From positions 186,001 to 250,000 of the forward strand of contig JADBYT010000015.1 in assembly GCA_020402865.1 (NCBI GenBank): a DNA stretch of 64,000 nucleotides, given 5' to 3'. The notes beneath the pieces were generated by a model, which did no database searches, was not told the DNA's origin, and saw nothing but the letters and a program-made list of their open reading frames with translations. This document shows, in pieces, positions 1-6,405 of this stretch. Made by a program: the position numbers and the translations under genes. Origin of the DNA: Bacteroidota bacterium. GTDB lineage: Bacteria > Bacteroidota > Bacteroidia > Palsa-965. Each line of letters begins with the position of its first letter. The stretch's first letter is position 1.

Positions 1-67
1 ATTCAACCGCGATACTATTGCCGAAGGATTTTACCAGTTGCTGGAGCAGCATGGCGCACAGCTGTAG
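1..67 (+). CDS. 3' end of an unidentified gene (partial)
   Basis: The window opens inside a reading frame that ends with EGFYQLLEQHGAQL and a TAG stop. Only about 21 codons are visible, so the family cannot be named. Its position ahead of an O-antigen ligase-like gene, an aminotransferase and a sugar transferase suggests a surface-polysaccharide gene, but this is inference from context. The last 13 codons including the stop (from base 29) recur at 911-949 as a detached copy (FYQLLAQHGAQL), so this end has been duplicated around the lipoprotein gene that follows. Confidence 0.6.
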   Translation, partial: FNRDTIAEGFYQLLEQHGAQL

Positions 68-186
68 TACCCCGCAAAAACAAAAAACAAAATCGGGGTT
101 TAACTCTCCGAGGTCTTTAAGACCTCGGAGAGTTGGGTAGTTAATTTGTTTTTTGTTTTTGCAGCCATGGGCAACGAAATCAATTT
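29..186. repeat. Direct repeat, copy 1 (gene 3' end plus palindrome)
   Basis: This stretch of about 158 bp is nearly identical to 911-1066. It contains the last 13 codons of the preceding gene, a short spacer and a large palindromic element. It is the left boundary of the islet that carries the lipoprotein gene. The two copies differ at a few positions, for example GAGCAGCATGGC here against GCGCAGCATGGT in copy 2. Confidence 0.85.
74..162. repeat. Long palindromic hairpin element, copy 1
   Basis: The core at 102-134 is a perfect inverted repeat, two 15-base arms (AACTCTCCGAGGTCT and its complement) around a 3-base centre. It is embedded in outer arms: an A-rich GCAAAAACAAAAAACAAA and its complement ending TTTTTGC. 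The whole unit can fold into one hairpin of nearly 90 bases. It lies directly after a stop codon and could act as a bidirectional terminator or be a dispersed palindromic repeat. Confidence 0.75.
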
Positions 187-211
187 CTGACAAAGACTTG
201 ACTTGTAATAT

Positions 212-811
212 TTATCGGGGAATAAATGTAAAGGTTTCAGTGCCTTTGGGCGGTAAGCCGGATGAAGTACCAACATTTGCAATTTCATAACTTCTCGAGA
301 GTGTAATTGTATCATGTCTTAGCTCATCAATACTAAATAGTGGAATTTGCTGCCTTTCGGGAAAATGGATAACACCGTTGTACGGCCATACACCGGAAGT
401 ACTTTCTGGAAAAAGAATAACTTGTGTTTTATTTTCTTTTCTATCCTTATCAAAAATGAAATTCCACTTACCTTTCATTATCCCCTGACTATTGGATAGC
501 GTGGTCATTTTCAGCTCAAATGTTTCATCCTTTCTAAAATCTAATTCACAGCTGTAATAAAGTGTATTATCAGGCAAATTTGGGTTTGCTGAAATGCAAA
601 CTTCCACGTTGTTCTGATAGTTCCATTCATTTTGAAATATTCCTCTTAGTTCGCTGTAAGTTCCTTTTGCAGTATATAATCGCCATTTTCCCACCATTCG
701 GGCTTTTCGTGTGCGAAGTGAAACAGCAGGGTCGTCTTCGGCCTTGCGCATACAGGAGTTGGTAAACAACAGGGAGATTATCAATGTGATAAACAGCGGA
801 AATTTGTACAT
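212..811 (-). CDS. Putative lipoprotein carried between duplicated flanks
   Basis: A protein of about 199 aa with an N-terminal signal and lipobox (LLFTNSC), so probably a lipid-anchored envelope protein. The frame opens at a TTG six bases further upstream, but the ATG at 811 gives a normal signal peptide (MYKFPLF...). The body (residues about 35-195) contains GKWRLY, GKWNFIFD and a C-terminal FTFIPR, resembling small lipocalin-like lipoproteins of Bacteroidota, but no family is assigned with confidence. The gene is convergent with its left neighbour and sits exactly between two 157-bp direct repeats, which suggests acquisition as a cargo unit. Confidence 0.75.
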   Translation of the reverse strand: MYKFPLFITLIISLLFTNSCMRKAEDDPAVSLRTRKARMVGKWRLYTAKGTYSELRGIFQNEWNYQNNVEVCISANPNLPDNTLYYSCELDFRKDETFELKMTTLSNSQGIMKGKWNFIFDKDRKENKTQVILFPESTSGVWPYNGVIHFPERQQIPLFSIDELRHDTITLSRSYEIANVGTSSGLPPKGTETFTFIPR

Positions 812-910
812 AAGCAATCGTTTAAAAGGGTTATTTTAAATAAAGGTATTATACGGGTAACCCAGAACCAACTGTTAATCATCATCTGGTGGAACAAACT
901 GAATAAATGG

Positions 911-1066
911 TTTTACCAGTTGCTGGCGCAGCATGGTGCACAGCTGTAGTACCTGCAAAAACAAAAAACAAAATCGGGTTTAACTCTCCGAGGTCTTTAA
1001 GACCTCGGAGAGTTGGGTAGTTAATTTGTTTTTTGTTTTTGCAGCCACGGGCAACGAAATCAATTT
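911..1066. repeat. Direct repeat, copy 2 (displaced gene 3' end plus palindrome)
   Basis: Near-identical copy of 29-186. Bases 911-949 are a headless remnant of the upstream gene's 3' end (FYQLLAQHGAQL then TAG) with no start. It is followed by the same spacer and palindrome and ends just ahead of the O-antigen ligase-like gene. It is the right boundary of the lipoprotein islet. Confidence 0.85.
955..1042. repeat. Long palindromic hairpin element, copy 2
   Basis: Second copy of the nested inverted repeat. The perfect core is at 982-1014, with A-rich and T-rich outer arms from 955 to 1042. It lies between the remnant gene end and the ligase-like gene, so a terminator role would insulate that gene from upstream transcription. 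Confidence 0.75.
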
Positions 1067-1117: not shown

Positions 1118-2371
1118 ATGCACACCTGGCACCACGCACTTCGCCAATTTCAACTCGGGCTGCTTCTGCTCGCTGCGGTGTGCATGCCTTTCGGCTTTTT
1201 TCAGGGGCCGCTGGCCGGTTTTCTGGCGCTGAGCTGGCTGGCCGATCTGCGCTGGAAACAGAAGTGGAACGACCTGCGCAATTCGGGCTGGTTCTGGGCC
1301 ATGTTTTTCTTCTACGGCCTTTATGCGCTTTCGCTTTTGTGGACAGACCACACCGACATGGGCAGCATGAGCCTTCAGGTAAAACTCGGCATGTTTATTT
1401 ATCCGCTGGTGCTGGCCGGCATCCGTCTCAACGAAAAGCAAACGCGCCGCATCATTGCTGCATTTCTGCTGGGTCTGCTGGCGGCAGGGCTTTTTATGCT
1501 GGGGCGCGCCACGCTCATCTGGATGAACGAACACCGCAACGCTTTTTTTTATCAGGCATTTACCGAGCGTATGGTGCATCCGGGCTACTTAGCCATGTAT
1601 TACTGCCTCGGCATTGCCCTGCTGTTTCATGCGGTTTTGCTGCAGGATGCCGGACGTGGCTGGAAAATTGGTGCAGCCCTGCTTTGCGGTTTTTACGTGC
1701 TCATTTTGCTGCTGCTGGCTTCAAAGCTCGGGTTGCTTGCACTGGCCTTGCTGGTGGCGGGCTATGTGGTGTATGCCATTATCCGTTTCCGCCGCTGGAT
1801 GGTGGGTGTGGCGGCGCTGCTGCTGCTGCTGGGCGGCTTTGTGGCGGCTTATAAGTTCATGCCCGGCCTGCGCGAACGGATTACCAACCTTACCGCCGCA
1901 CTCAATACCAAAGAACCCATTGACCCGGCTGAAGTGGAAAGCAACCGTGTGCGCCTGCTCATCTGGAATGCCGATGTGACTATTATTTCCAGCAATCCGC
2001 TTGGCGTGGGCGCCGGCGATGTGCAGTATGCGCTGGAACAGGAATACGCCATACGCGGCATGACCGGCGCGGGCGAGAAACACCTCAACGCACACAGCCA
2101 GTTTTTTCAAACCACCATTGCCGCCGGCTGGGCCGGACTGCTGGCGCTGCTCATTATTGTGCTGGGGCCGGTGCTCTGGGGCATCCGGGTGCGCTACGGC
2201 TTTGCGGTTATCTTCGGCTTGCTGTTTTTTGTAAACTGCCTGCCCGAGTCGATGCTTGAAGTACAGGCAGGAACTTTATTCTTCGGCTTTTTTTATTCGC
2301 TATTTTTGCTCTCAGCCAGCCGCAACTGTCTTACACCGTTGAAAGCACCGCCGCTGGCCTGGCCGCTATGA
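1118..2371 (+). CDS. O-antigen ligase-like / Wzy-C family membrane protein
   Basis: A polytopic membrane protein of 417 aa with about ten hydrophobic segments. Between the last membrane segments, at about residues 280-330, is the periplasmic loop typical of the WaaL/Wzy_C family (NRVRLLIWNADV, then NPLGVGAGD and an H in LNAHSQFFQ). The family joins polysaccharide to lipid A-core or polymerises repeat units at the periplasmic face. The frame opens at TTG 1082, but ATG 1118 (MHTWHHALRQ) is preferred. Its stop overlaps the next gene's start (ATGA at 2368), so the two are translationally coupled. Ligase and polymerase cannot be told apart here. Confidence 0.8.
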   Translation: MHTWHHALRQFQLGLLLLAAVCMPFGFFQGPLAGFLALSWLADLRWKQKWNDLRNSGWFWAMFFFYGLYALSLLWTDHTDMGSMSLQVKLGMFIYPLVLAGIRLNEKQTRRIIAAFLLGLLAAGLFMLGRATLIWMNEHRNAFFYQAFTERMVHPGYLAMYYCLGIALLFHAVLLQDAGRGWKIGAALLCGFYVLILLLLASKLGLLALALLVAGYVVYAIIRFRRWMVGVAALLLLLGGFVAAYKFMPGLRERITNLTAALNTKEPIDPAEVESNRVRLLIWNADVTIISSNPLGVGAGDVQYALEQEYAIRGMTGAGEKHLNAHSQFFQTTIAAGWAGLLALLIIVLGPVLWGIRVRYGFAVIFGLLFFVNCLPESMLEVQAGTLFFGFFYSLFLLSASRNCLTPLKAPPLAWPL

Positions 2372-3585
2372 TTCCTTTTTCTCCTCCGCGCATCGATCAG
2401 CGCATTATCGACGAAGTAACCGCCGCCCTGCAATCGGGCTGGATTACCACCGGACCACGTACCAAGCTGTTTGAAAAAAAGCTTTCGGAATACACCGGTG
2501 CGCCCGCCACACTTTGCCTCAACTCGGCCACGGCCGGGCTTGAGGTGATTCTGCGCTGGTATGGCGTGGGGCCCGGCGATGAAGTCATTCTGCCTGCCTA
2601 CACCTACGCCGCTACTGCCAATGTGGTTATTCACTGCGGCGCCACGCCGGTGTTTGTAGATGTGCGTGCCGACGATTTCTGCATCGACGTGGAGGCGGCA
2701 GCCAACGCCATTACGCCGCGCACCAAAGTAATTATGCCGGTGGATATTGGCGGCTTTCCGGCCGATTATACCGCGCTTACTGCACTGGCCGAAAGCCGCC
2801 GCAGCCAGTTTGCAGCCGCCACCGATGCGCAGCAACAGCTGGGCCGCATACTCATTCTCGGCGATGCGGCGCATTCCATTGGTGCATTCCTGAACGGCAT
2901 TCCGGCCGGGCGGCATTGCGACATCAGCTGCTTTTCCTTTCACGCTGTGAAAAACCTCACCACGGCCGAGGGCGGCAGCGTAAACCTCAATCTGCCTGCG
3001 CCGTTTGATAACGAGGCGCTTTACAAATGGCTCTGCATGTACACACTGCACGGCCAGACCAAAGATGCGCTGGCCAAAATGCAGAAAGGCAACTGGCGCT
3101 ACGATATTGTGGAGGCCGGCTACAAATGCAACATGACCGACCTGCAGGCCGCCATCGGCCTTGTGGAGCTTGAACGCTACACCACCGATACATTGGTGCG
3201 CCGCCGCGAAATTTTTGACCGTTATATAAATGCCTTCAGCCAGTACAGCTGGGCCCAGCTGCCGGTGTTTGAACGCGGCAGCACCGTATCCTCGTATCAC
3301 TTGTTTTTGCTGCGTATCAAAGGCATTACCGAGGCGCAGCGCGATGCCATCATCCAGCGCATTTTCGATGCGGATGTGTCGGTGAATGTGCATTATGTGC
3401 CCGTGCCCATGATGACGTTCTACAAAAACAAAGGCTACAACGTACACGATTATCCGGTGACGTATGACAACTATGCCCGCGAAATTTCGCTGCCCGTGTA
3501 TTACGATTTAACCAACGAACAGGTGGACACTGTGGTGCGTGCCGTGGCCAATGCCGTAGCCGCCGAAACCGGAATACATGGCTAA
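2368..3585 (+). CDS. DegT/DnrJ/EryC1/StrS-family sugar aminotransferase
   Basis: A PLP-dependent aminotransferase of 405 aa, the family that makes amino sugars (or nucleotide-sugar amines) for surface glycans. Visible features are the N-terminal SGWITTGP, the cofactor-pocket GDAAHS at about 165-170 (Asp166) and the Schiff-base lysine in FHAVKNLTTAEGG at about Lys195. The length is usual for the family. It overlaps the ligase-like gene by 4 bp and the downstream sugar transferase by 8 bp, a tight operon. The exact sugar substrate cannot be read from sequence. Confidence 0.92.
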   Translation: MIPFSPPRIDQRIIDEVTAALQSGWITTGPRTKLFEKKLSEYTGAPATLCLNSATAGLEVILRWYGVGPGDEVILPAYTYAATANVVIHCGATPVFVDVRADDFCIDVEAAANAITPRTKVIMPVDIGGFPADYTALTALAESRRSQFAAATDAQQQLGRILILGDAAHSIGAFLNGIPAGRHCDISCFSFHAVKNLTTAEGGSVNLNLPAPFDNEALYKWLCMYTLHGQTKDALAKMQKGNWRYDIVEAGYKCNMTDLQAAIGLVELERYTTDTLVRRREIFDRYINAFSQYSWAQLPVFERGSTVSSYHLFLLRIKGITEAQRDAIIQRIFDADVSVNVHYVPVPMMTFYKNKGYNVHDYPVTYDNYAREISLPVYYDLTNEQVDTVVRAVANAVAAETGIHG

Positions 3586-4168
3586 GCGCGTGTTTGATCT
3601 TGTGGCTTCATTCATTGGTTTGCTCATTTTGCTGCCGGTGTTGCTGGGTCTTGCGCTCTGGGTGATGCTCGACAGCCGTGGCGGCATTTTTTACCGGCAG
3701 GTGCGTGTAGGCAAGGGCGGAGTGGATTTCAAACTCTGGAAATTCCGCACCATGCACCCCGATGCCGACAAGCGCGGCCTGCTCACCGTAGGCGGCCGCG
3801 ACCCGCGCATTACCCGCGCCGGCTACTACCTGCGCAAATACAAACTCGATGAACTGCCGCAACTGCTCAACGTCCTCACCGGCGATATGAGCCTCGTAGG
3901 CCCGCGCCCCGAAGTACGCAAATACGTGAGCATGTACACACCGCAACAAATGCGTGTGCTGGATGTACGCCCCGGCATTACCGACTATGCGTCTATCGAA
4001 TATTCCAACGAAAACGAATTACTCGCACAAGCAGCCGATCCGGAGCGCACGTATATTGAGGAGGTAATGCCCGCCAAGCTGGCGCTCAATGAAAAGTACA
4101 TTGCCGAGCAGGGGTTGATGACGGATTTGCGGATTATTTGGATGACGGTGCGGAAGATTGTTTCTTGA
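3578..4168 (+). CDS. Bacterial sugar transferase (polyprenyl-phosphate phosphoglycosyltransferase)
   Basis: A 196-aa monotopic phosphoglycosyltransferase of the WbaP/PglC core type. It should transfer a sugar-1-phosphate from a nucleotide sugar to undecaprenyl phosphate, the first step of repeat-unit assembly. There is one N-terminal hydrophobic segment (about 8-30), then [23 protein letters not shown] and MSLVGPRPE, the family signatures. The length matches the minimal PglC form without extra membrane domains. Its last 187 bp before the final codons (3975-4161) are duplicated at 5001-5187, but this copy is intact. The 3' end overlaps a convergent 70-aa gene. Confidence 0.93.
3975..4161. repeat. 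Direct repeat, copy 1 (3' end of the sugar transferase gene)
   Basis: A 187-bp segment of the sugar transferase gene recurs without gaps at 5001-5187 with about five substitutions. It marks the left edge of an islet holding two minus-strand genes. Identity ends at AAGATTGT, a few codons before the host stop. Confidence 0.92.
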
Positions 4169-4346
4169 TTACTGAAACACCTGCGGTTTTACGTGTAGAT
4201 AATTTTTTCCCCATTTTAACCCTCTTGCCTCGCTTAGCCTTTAATTCCTGAATGAATTTGCTGATAGCAAGTTGTTCATCGCTTGTCAGCGGATTGTTTT
4301 GTCCGCCGATGAAATCCACGTCTAATTCTTTTGTTCGGTGTTTCAT
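4134..4346 (-). CDS. Small charged protein paired with an acetyltransferase-like gene
   Basis: A 70-aa basic protein with the segment DVDFIGGQNNPLTSDEQ then AISKFIQELKAKRGKR. Small proteins with a similar start and basic tail are found beside acetyltransferase-like genes in Bacteroidota; that association is from memory and the function is unknown. It starts 4 bp inside the upstream 193-aa gene (ATGA overlap at 4343-4346), implying co-translation. Its last codons run antisense into the sugar transferase 3' end, so its C-terminus was formed at the islet junction. An antitoxin or accessory role is possible but unproven. Confidence 0.65.
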   Translation of the reverse strand: MKHRTKELDVDFIGGQNNPLTSDEQLAISKFIQELKAKRGKRVKMGKKLSTRKTAGVSVIKKQSSAPSSK

Positions 4347-4924
4347 TTTTGGAAATATTTGTTAGTCAATTTTAAAGCAGAAATAGTATCTATAATCATT
4401 ATTCGGCCACCAACGTGTATAGCTCCTAAACTATCAGTATAGTGTTGGATTAATTGTGTCTTTGAGAAAAAAGATACATTCCCTTCGTGACCTCTTTGGA
4501 AAGAAAGTTTGCAAGCAAAGGCCACTAAGTTTCCTGGAACACCTGCGTACATTTTATTTTTCCCTTTGTTAAACGGAGCACTTTCAATAAGGTGTATATA
4601 AACATGATCGGTTTTGACTTCCAAACTTATTAAGCCTTGAATGATTAGTTCATTATTTACAATTGTTAGTTTGTAAACTTCTCGTTCAGGTTGTTTGTAT
4701 TCATATTTCCAATCAAACTGCCAGTTGTTCTTTTTCGTGATATTCTTTAGGTCGTGAAGTGAAACTACTGAAATATCAGTGGCAAAACTATCACCTGTTA
4801 CCACATTTTCAATGGAGTTTGTCAATTTGTCAACCTCAAAATCTAATCCCTTGAAAGTATGTTTTTTCACATAGCTAATATACGCAATAAATACTTTACG
4901 GACAAGCAAATCAGCCAGTCTCAA
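4343..4924 (-). CDS. GNAT-like acetyltransferase fold protein (start uncertain)
   Basis: About 193 aa if the TTG at 4924 is used. An in-frame stop lies immediately upstream and there is no early ATG, so the start could also be the GTG at about 4870, or the 5' end may be truncated. The C-terminal half resembles the acetyl-CoA binding core of GNAT enzymes: VPGNLVAFACKLS, then RGHEGNVSFFSK, then HYTDSLGAIHVGGRIMIID. The substrate is unknown. It is followed by the overlapping 70-aa gene, and together they form the cargo of an islet bounded by sugar-transferase 3' duplications. The GNAT call is a motif judgement. Confidence 0.6.
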   Translation of the reverse strand: MRLADLLVRKVFIAYISYVKKHTFKGLDFEVDKLTNSIENVVTGDSFATDISVVSLHDLKNITKKNNWQFDWKYEYKQPEREVYKLTIVNNELIIQGLISLEVKTDHVYIHLIESAPFNKGKNKMYAGVPGNLVAFACKLSFQRGHEGNVSFFSKTQLIQHYTDSLGAIHVGGRIMIIDTISALKLTNKYFQK

Positions 4925-5000
4925 CTATTTTCACCAATACAGTGACACTTAAATTTTGACTAAAGACGAAGCTCGCAGAAGTTTAAATAATCAGACTCGG

Positions 5001-5187
5001 GCATTACCGTCAATGCGTCTATCGAATATTCCAACGAAAACGAATTACTCGCACAATCAGCCGATCCGGAGCGCACGTATATTGAGGAGGTAATGCCCGC
5101 CAAGCTGGCGCTCAATGAAAAGTACATTGCCGAGCAGGGGGGGATGACGGATTTGCGGATTATTTGGATGACGGTGCGGAAGATTGT
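5001..5187 (+). pseudogene. Detached 3' fragment of the sugar transferase gene (repeat copy 2)
   Basis: A headless duplicate of 3975-4161. It would encode the tail from about [13 protein letters not shown] to [15 protein letters not shown], but with no start codon, no catalytic region and a divergent end. Substitutions include AAGCAG to AATCAG and GGTTGATG to GGGGGATG. It forms the right boundary of the GNAT-like islet and the immediate left neighbour of the AT-rich gene at 5212. Confidence 0.9.
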
Positions 5188-5211: not shown

Positions 5212-6405
5212 ATGAAAGAAAATATTTTAGAAAATTGGTATAATTCTTTAAAGTGGGATTCCTCCAATTTAAATCCTTATCGATCTTTGGATAGGCAACA
5301 ACTTGATTTTATTTATCATATTTTTCTTAGTTTCTATGGAGACAATTATTTTGATATTAAATCAAATAATTTCACTTCTGAAAATAATTCTTATTGGATA
5401 TATTTTTTGTTAATTAATAATCAAAAAAATTCAAGTTTTCAGGCATTAAAAGATATCGCTGAAAATATCGACTATGCTATAAGACTTGGTGGAGACTTCC
5501 TGAAAAGGGTAAATAGTTTTAAGAAAAATCAAAGTCAAATGAGAGATTTTCTTTTTGAAATATTTATATATAAATTATTAGATAAGAGTGGTATTTACAA
5601 TATTAAAAATAATTATATAAATAATCGTCAACGAGAAGGTGTTTTAAGAATTAATGGTATTGATTATTTATTCGAATGTCGTAAAGTGTATGTAATAAAT
5701 AAAAGTCAAATAGACTTTAGGAAAAGACTTCTTGATCAGATATATCTGAATTCTGTGAAATGCAAAAAAGGTATAGGCTATTTATTAACAGTAAGTTTTA
5801 AAAATCAGCTTATTAATCACAAAGAATTTTTAGTATTCGAAAAAAAAATCAGTCAATTCTATAGTAAATTAAATAATTTAGAGTCAGTTAGTAGGATTGA
5901 TTACCATGATGAATCTAATGAAGGAGTATTGAAAGTTATTGATTATAACGAGACTGATGCCATAAATATACACTCAGATAATTCGATACAAGTACGCCTA
6001 GTTGTTAGACCTCCTGAAAAACAAATTGAAAATGTGTTAGGTAACTACTCACATGAATTAAGCTCAAATTTTCAAATTTCACAAAATGACATTTATAAAA
6101 AAGTAAAGGAGGTTTTGAAAGAAAAGAAAAAGCAGATGAAAAACAGTAATTATTCTAATAATATAATATTTTTAGATTTTGAAAGCGTTGTTGGTATTGA
6201 TCTTTCATTATTTTCAAGTCAAAGAAAATGGGATGAAGAAAGGTTAAATGATATTCGAAGGTCATTAAATATGGATCATACTATTTGTTTTATTATTAGA
6301 GATTATACTGGGAATAAATATGAATCTCATGTACTTATAATTAGTTCTGTTAGTGATCCTTTATTTAAAAAGGCTCTTACTGATATGTTTGAATCTCAGA
6401 AATAG
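5212..6405 (+). CDS. AT-rich orphan protein, possible nuclease-like fold
   Basis: A protein of about 397 aa starting at ATG 5212 (MKENILENWY); the frame itself opens 16 codons earlier inside duplicated sequence. Codon use is extremely A/T-rich and rich in Asn, Ile, Lys and Tyr, unlike every neighbour, which points to recent transfer. At about residues 155-200 there is GVLRINGIDYLFECRKVY followed by FRKRLLDQIY. Acidic and basic residues on adjacent strands recall PD-(D/E)xK nucleases, but the motif is not canonical (ECRK). There is no signal peptide. It could be a restriction-like or defence protein; no family is recognised with confidence. Confidence 0.7.
   Translation: MKENILENWYNSLKWDSSNLNPYRSLDRQQLDFIYHIFLSFYGDNYFDIKSNNFTSENNSYWIYFLLINNQKNSSFQALKDIAENIDYAIRLGGDFLKRVNSFKKNQSQMRDFLFEIFIYKLLDKSGIYNIKNNYINNRQREGVLRINGIDYLFECRKVYVINKSQIDFRKRLLDQIYLNSVKCKKGIGYLLTVSFKNQLINHKEFLVFEKKISQFYSKLNNLESVSRIDYHDESNEGVLKVIDYNETDAINIHSDNSIQVRLVVRPPEKQIENVLGNYSHELSSNFQISQNDIYKKVKEVLKEKKKQMKNSNYSNNIIFLDFESVVGIDLSLFSSQRKWDEERLNDIRRSLNMDHTICFIIRDYTGNKYESHVLIISSVSDPLFKKALTDMFESQK

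Follow-up and report, generated by a model that had tools for sequence, protein, structure and literature searches.

Small gene islets between duplicated ends of intact neighbour genes in Bacteroidota suggest addition by recombination at the host gene's own end

The movement of small gene modules that carry no transposase or integrase of their own has long posed a question, chiefly in the case of chromosomal toxin-antitoxin pairs. A lipoprotein gene in the genome of a Bacteroidota bacterium raises this question again: it lies between two copies of the 3' end of its upstream neighbour, and the neighbour itself is complete. How could a gene have come to stand there with its host left whole? The locus opens the window, that is, the whole stretch of 64,000 nucleotides that was analysed (assembly GCA_020402865.1, contig JADBYT010000015.1, positions 186,001 to 250,000). 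Together with a second islet it lies deep inside a 334-kb contig of a draft genome of 49 contigs, here called G000. The layout suggests a route by which recombination at the host gene's own end adds small genes, with no dedicated mobile-element enzyme.

Self-comparison of the window aligns positions 29-186 with 911-1066 as a direct repeat of 158 columns at 96.2% identity (E about 6e-67), far beyond chance, and thereby bears out the repeat pair claimed in an earlier, sequence-only reading of the same DNA (Table 1). Copy 1 carries the end of the glycosyltransferase, FYQLLEQHGAQL followed by the stop codon, so that the 13 terminal codons named in that reading correspond to 12 residues plus the stop. 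The palindrome behind them is a nested hairpin with an outer stem of 18-20 bp (GCAAAAACAAAAAACAAA) and an inner stem of 16-18 bp, and its fold z is about -7 to -9. The host gene had rightly been called intact, the GT4-type glycosyltransferase being a complete ORF (G000:C15:184829-186067). Copy 2 has no gene body before it and stands, again as described, outside the lipoprotein gene as a headless end. At both borders of the repeat the similarity ends abruptly, which argues against its being part of a larger tandem duplication; nothing points to such a duplication, which the earlier reading had named as a counter-explanation.

Table 1. Features of the two islets and of the genes that adjoin them (positions in the window).
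Feature	Position	Strand	Basis
3' end of GT4-family glycosyltransferase, 412 aa, start upstream of the window, intact	1..67	+	ORF; Pfam PF00534, PF13692
Repeat copy 1: last 13 glycosyltransferase codons and hairpin	29..186	+	self-comparison
Nested hairpin, copy 1: outer A/C-rich stem, inner CTCCGAGGTCTT/AAGACCTCGGAG stem	74..164		folding
Cargo of first islet: lipoprotein gene, 199 aa from ATG, lipocalin-like barrel weakly predicted	212..811	-	ORF, structure model
Repeat copy 2: headless glycosyltransferase end (911-949) and hairpin	911..1066	+	self-comparison
Nested hairpin, copy 2	953..1044		folding
O-antigen ligase (Wzy_C), conserved downstream neighbour of the glycosyltransferase	1118..2371	+	profile match, synteny
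wcaJ-like sugar transferase, intact, adjoins second islet	3578..4168	+	ORF, synteny
Second islet, repeat copy 1: 188 bp of wcaJ 3' end	3974..4161	+	self-comparison
Second islet cargo: 70-aa partner protein, possible antitoxin	4134..4346	-	ORF
Second islet cargo: GNAT-fold protein	4343..4924	-	homologue search, structure model
Second islet, repeat copy 2: headless wcaJ end, 97.3% identical	5000..5187	+	self-comparison

The cargo between the copies is a single ORF in the orientation opposite to that of its host, as had been stated. It has a lipobox-like start (MYKFPLFITLIISLLFTNSC), and the GC content of the islet cargo is 36-38% versus 52-60% in the flanking genes. Its predicted structure resembles lipocalin-like barrels weakly (TM-scores mostly 0.3-0.4), and neither it nor a 413-aa ORF could be placed convincingly in a family by searches of Pfam, NCBIfam and PADLOC. 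The setting is a sugar-polymer gene cluster. Inspection of the ORFs in and next to the islet agreed with the earlier claim that no transposase or integrase lies there; one has to go about 28 kb to reach the nearest ORF with a tyrosine-recombinase match (window about 27.8-28.7 kb), which scores under the integron-integrase cut-off. With direct long repeats, and with ORFs inside and beside it that include no transposase, the islet does not have the features of a transposon, a MITE or an insertion sequence. A tRNA search of the window found none, and a tRNA-associated insertion was rejected.

Comparison with other genomes supports a gain of the lipoprotein gene. The gene order glycosyltransferase, O-antigen ligase, aminotransferase and sugar transferase is conserved in many Bacteroidota, and the first two are adjacent, with no lipoprotein gene between them, in the same-genus genome G002 and in many other Bacteroidota. 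These relatives argue that the islet is an insertion, which would have left the host gene intact. The empty-site comparison proposed in the sequence-only reading was answered in part: the junction without the lipoprotein gene is present in relatives, but these are too distant to share the intergenic repeat. None of the relatives has the two repeat copies while lacking the cargo. In many relatives (loci L147, L080, L082, L137, L146 and others) the gap between glycosyltransferase and ligase holds a methyltransferase gene; an insertion hotspot with a shared cargo was considered and rejected, since the gap in other relatives holds mostly methyltransferases and not lipoproteins.

The nested hairpin probably serves as a bidirectional terminator where the glycosyltransferase and lipoprotein genes converge. 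It is not what defines the islets, since other islets are without a palindrome. Related nested hairpins are dispersed in G000 (C1:150410-150495, C20:534-583, C8:113277-113332, C8:118400-118481 and C38:33535-33587). Among them the inner stem (GAGGTCTT/AAGACCTC) is mostly conserved, the outer A/C-rich stem differs copy by copy with its pairing kept, and the flanks outside the stem are held in common, resembling GATTGNAGTGGAAAT and GGAACGGAAAGC. The exact core is confined to G000 among the 39 genomes searched, and the idea of a dispersed palindrome common to relatives was rejected. An Rfam search of the window matched no known structured RNA.

A further check that had been proposed, a search for other lipoprotein genes bounded by neighbour ends, returned a fitting case. 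In genome G015 a distant homologue lies between 103-bp duplicated 3' ends of another gene, and all the differences between these copies are synonymous (3/3). In the lipoprotein family the gene-end layout is present at 2 of about 30 loci, one of which is the discovery case, and no rate is claimed. Elsewhere in G000 three lipoprotein paralogues, about 31-34% identical, stand in tandem (L150:2472-4234, contig C24); a flanking gene-end repeat was not found there.

The layout occurs a second time in the window, 3 kb from the lipoprotein islet, in a place absent from the earlier reading. Here self-comparison pairs 188 bp of the wcaJ 3' end (3974-4161) with a copy at 5000-5187 that is 97.3% identical, and the islet they bound (3974-5187) holds two genes that overlap by 4 nt and run opposite to wcaJ. 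The model of the GNAT-fold protein (pLDDT 89) has Foldseek matches that include the GNAT toxins AtaT, TacT3 and KacT together with other GNAT enzymes. GNAT-type type II toxin-antitoxin systems are defined by a GNAT fold and a small partner gene, both of which are found in this cargo; the two genes are therefore regarded as a putative GNAT-type, toxin-antitoxin-like pair, cargo functions being read throughout from fold and family alone. Directly after the headless wcaJ end follows a very AT-rich ORF (window 5212-6405, 23-26% GC, about 397 aa from ATG), for which a convincing family match was not found and which may be another insertion. Two further islets were found by the same rule in the 1.26 Mb of G000 that were scanned. 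One holds ParDE behind a cysteine-desulfurase-like gene (contig C4, repeat of 74 bp), the other a BRO-N-like gene and a 358-aa ORF behind a 161-aa ORF (contig C8, repeat of 48 bp).

Homologues of the GNAT protein are patchily distributed across the class (47 of 295 genomes). Direct repeats of any kind flank 19 of 48 GNAT loci, a figure that takes in attC-like arrays and dispersed repeats, versus 2 of 315 and 8 of 400 random targets; such arrays and dispersed repeats were excluded from the gene-end counts. For the latter a strict automatic rule was applied, by which one repeat copy must cover the end of an intact ORF. It was matched by 7 of 41 GNAT loci (Fisher 2e-7), counting the window's own islet and one doubtful match (L235, 73% identity), by 6 of 62 ParE-family loci (3e-5), and by 2 of 514 control ORFs, which represent one and the same BRO-type islet. 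The ParE loci form an independent family that was unused in the discovery of the pattern, and their choice was prompted by a ParE-type pair stacked with a GNAT module at locus L232. Gene-end duplications are thus enriched around toxin-antitoxin-like modules. The islets measure about 0.7-2.2 kb, and both 5' and 3' gene ends are used.

Some gene ends carry more than one islet. At L232:3179-4636 a ParE/RelE-type pair and a GNAT module stand behind thiL, with three copies of the thiL 3' end between, and at L236:3722-5554 a GNAT pair and a PIN-domain pair are accompanied by three copies of the 5' end of a rhamnose mutarotase gene. The simplest reading of both arrays is that of repeated events at one gene end. 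GNAT modules are also present in arrays with attC-like repeats at L238 (G226:C70), L237 (G037:C35) and L252 (G133:C5), which look like integron arrays; the repeat at L238 has the form GCCTAAC...GTTAGGC. At L216 (G039:C1) the direct repeats on either side of a GNAT homologue are 855 bp long and 97% identical.

The lipoprotein islet is here interpreted as a small gene acquired horizontally through additive recombination anchored on the 3' end of the glycosyltransferase, a reading to which a probability of about 0.5 is assigned. From the observed insertion and repeat, their recurrence in the genome and the class, and the enrichment around toxin-antitoxin-like modules, we infer the following recombination steps. 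A donor DNA would carry this gene end with the cargo behind it. A crossover within the common end would join the resident gene body to the donor end and its cargo, and the far side of the cargo would be joined illegitimately, slightly upstream, within the resident end. The resident end and its former downstream neighbour would then survive past the cargo as the headless copy, and the host gene would never be broken. Of the two borders, one is sharp and inside the gene and the other lies at the end of homology. Repeat events at one gene end would yield arrays of the form T-cargo1-T-cargo2-T, and recombination between copies could remove a cargo cleanly.

Under additive recombination one copy would be resident and the other an imported allele. 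Coding differences were pooled from 14 repeat pairs picked by eye or by context, with no blind rule, and fall on codon positions 1, 2 and 3 as 20, 15 and 55 (55 of 90 at the third). This third-position excess has P = 6e-8 against one third, and P = 8e-4 against a model in which the headless copy drifts freely and the intact one changes only synonymously, whose expected third-position share, 0.44, is the author's own estimate. In 7 of the 14 pairs the cargo-side border of the repeat lies at most 3 nt from a start or stop codon. At L171 the headless copy ends with its own TAA and the intact gene has TGA; at L342 the headless copy stays open for 72 codons up to a stop of its own, and orthologues from related genomes match either copy about equally often. 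Some pairs have diverged to 78-82% with the reading frame kept. The third-position excess and the ends at codon borders point to an imported allele joined to the resident one rather than to a simple duplication of the target, because homology between species tends to stop at the gene border. A copy made at insertion and then drifting would not be expected to show the excess or to have stops of its own. The evidence for two alleles comes mostly from other loci, and for the lipoprotein islet the idea is carried over from those islets. The coding portion of its own repeat is 39 nt with 2 differences, one synonymous and one not, which are too few to judge the two-allele idea there, and the repeat runs 119 nt beyond the stop codon, unlike those elsewhere that end at a codon border.

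The layout could also have arisen by insertion with long target duplication, in which the cargo enters at a break whose ends lie far apart and 50-200 bp of resident DNA are copied to each side during repair, so that no donor gene end is needed. Long, variable direct repeats with no transposase would result, and repeats of this kind, made of resident sequence, do flank the cargos. The wcaJ pair would seem to fit local duplication followed by decay better than an imported allele, since at 97% identity it lacks the third-position excess (0 of 5 differences) and its headless copy continues into other sequence with no stop; the lipoprotein repeat, which spans intergenic DNA at 96% identity, likewise suits a local copy. 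A plain long target duplication is a possible account of both islets in the window. The pooled excess, the repeat ends at codon borders, the stop codons that headless copies carry of their own and the frames kept in the most diverged pairs all speak against it, and as an explanation it is considered unlikely, while retaining appreciable weight. In a third scheme of the Campbell type, a circle made of gene end and cargo integrates by homologous recombination, circles being formed by copy-copy recombination in a donor that bears the islet. The same structure, two alleles, multi-copy arrays and clean excision are predicted, and repeats of about 30-220 bp could support the recombination; but no circle has been seen, and a donor that must already have the islet would explain spread and not origin. 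Circle integration is thought improbable. Its product is identical to that of one-sided recombination, and the present data do not separate the two.

Two other schemes are harder to reconcile with the islets. An integron-like or hairpin-directed cassette insertion would make the nested hairpin the recombination site, in keeping with its presence in both copies, the dispersal of related hairpins in the genome and the GNAT modules in attC-like arrays elsewhere. It appears very improbable, as the repeat takes in coding sequence, other islets are without such a hairpin, the hairpin copies elsewhere are solitary, and no integron integrase above the TIGR02249 cut-off was found in G000 or 19 relatives. 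An integron origin was rejected on account of this missing integrase and because the resemblance of the hairpin flanks to attC core motifs is not retained in other copies. If a larger segment had long ago been duplicated in tandem and a deletion had followed, a chance pair of gene ends could remain around an older lipoprotein gene, with a headless copy here too. That history is scarcely credible with a similarity cut off so abruptly, a cargo absent from relatives and a layout that recurs with unrelated genes and cargos.

Beyond this locus, it is tentatively proposed, as a possible but doubtful generalization of additive recombination, that Bacteroidota may use host gene ends as locus-specific landing sites. 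Small modules would move as units of gene end and cargo, stack, and leave by copy-copy recombination, forming an integrase-free cassette system whose attachment site is whichever gene end travels with the cargo. If true, toxin-antitoxin pairs, lipoproteins and other genes would pass between strains as such units. The layout can be read from single genomes, with the host gene kept intact, and it predicts both a donor, with the same gene end and then the cargo, and clean excision, so that the question of movement becomes testable with strain-level genomes. A further warning concerns annotation, where a headless gene end may be the scar left by an inserted module.

Toxin-antitoxin modules between duplicated parts of neighbour genes were sought in the literature; the search, whose coverage left subscription journals largely outside, did not find the pattern described. 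Several known systems resemble it in part. Integron gene cassettes also form arrays of single modules with repeats between, and GNAT modules occur elsewhere in attC-like arrays; the islets differ in having no integrase and no common recombination site, the repeat being specific to each host gene. Some integrase elements rebuild the 3' end of the gene they target and leave a displaced copy of that end. The islets likewise keep the target gene intact and retain the displaced copy, whereas they have no integrase gene, measure only about 0.7-2.2 kb and make use of 5' as well as 3' ends. Insertion with long target duplication was proposed for restriction-modification genes in Helicobacter. For restriction-modification gene complexes it has been reported by Nobusato et al. 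(2000) and Furuta et al. (2010), according to the descriptions in PMC3874152 and PMC3031569. As far as these descriptions go, the likeness lies in small selfish-type modules, no mobile element and long, variable direct repeats of about 100 bp. Set against the accounts in these citing papers, the islets here are in Bacteroidota and their cargo is a module of lipoprotein, GNAT, ParE or PIN type, and the repeats are gene ends, often ending at start or stop codons, with allele-like differences and stacked arrays. Homology-facilitated illegitimate recombination has been proposed for the T6SS effector-immunity arrays of Vibrio cholerae and for displaced Rhs tails (PMC5361080). That process has in common with the one proposed here a single anchor of homology, a far end joined illegitimately, insertion that adds to what is present, and the retention of old ends downstream (PMC5361080); there, however, the variable 3' part of a toxin gene is displaced, whereas here the anchor is an unrelated, functional housekeeping gene and the cargo a complete, separate module.
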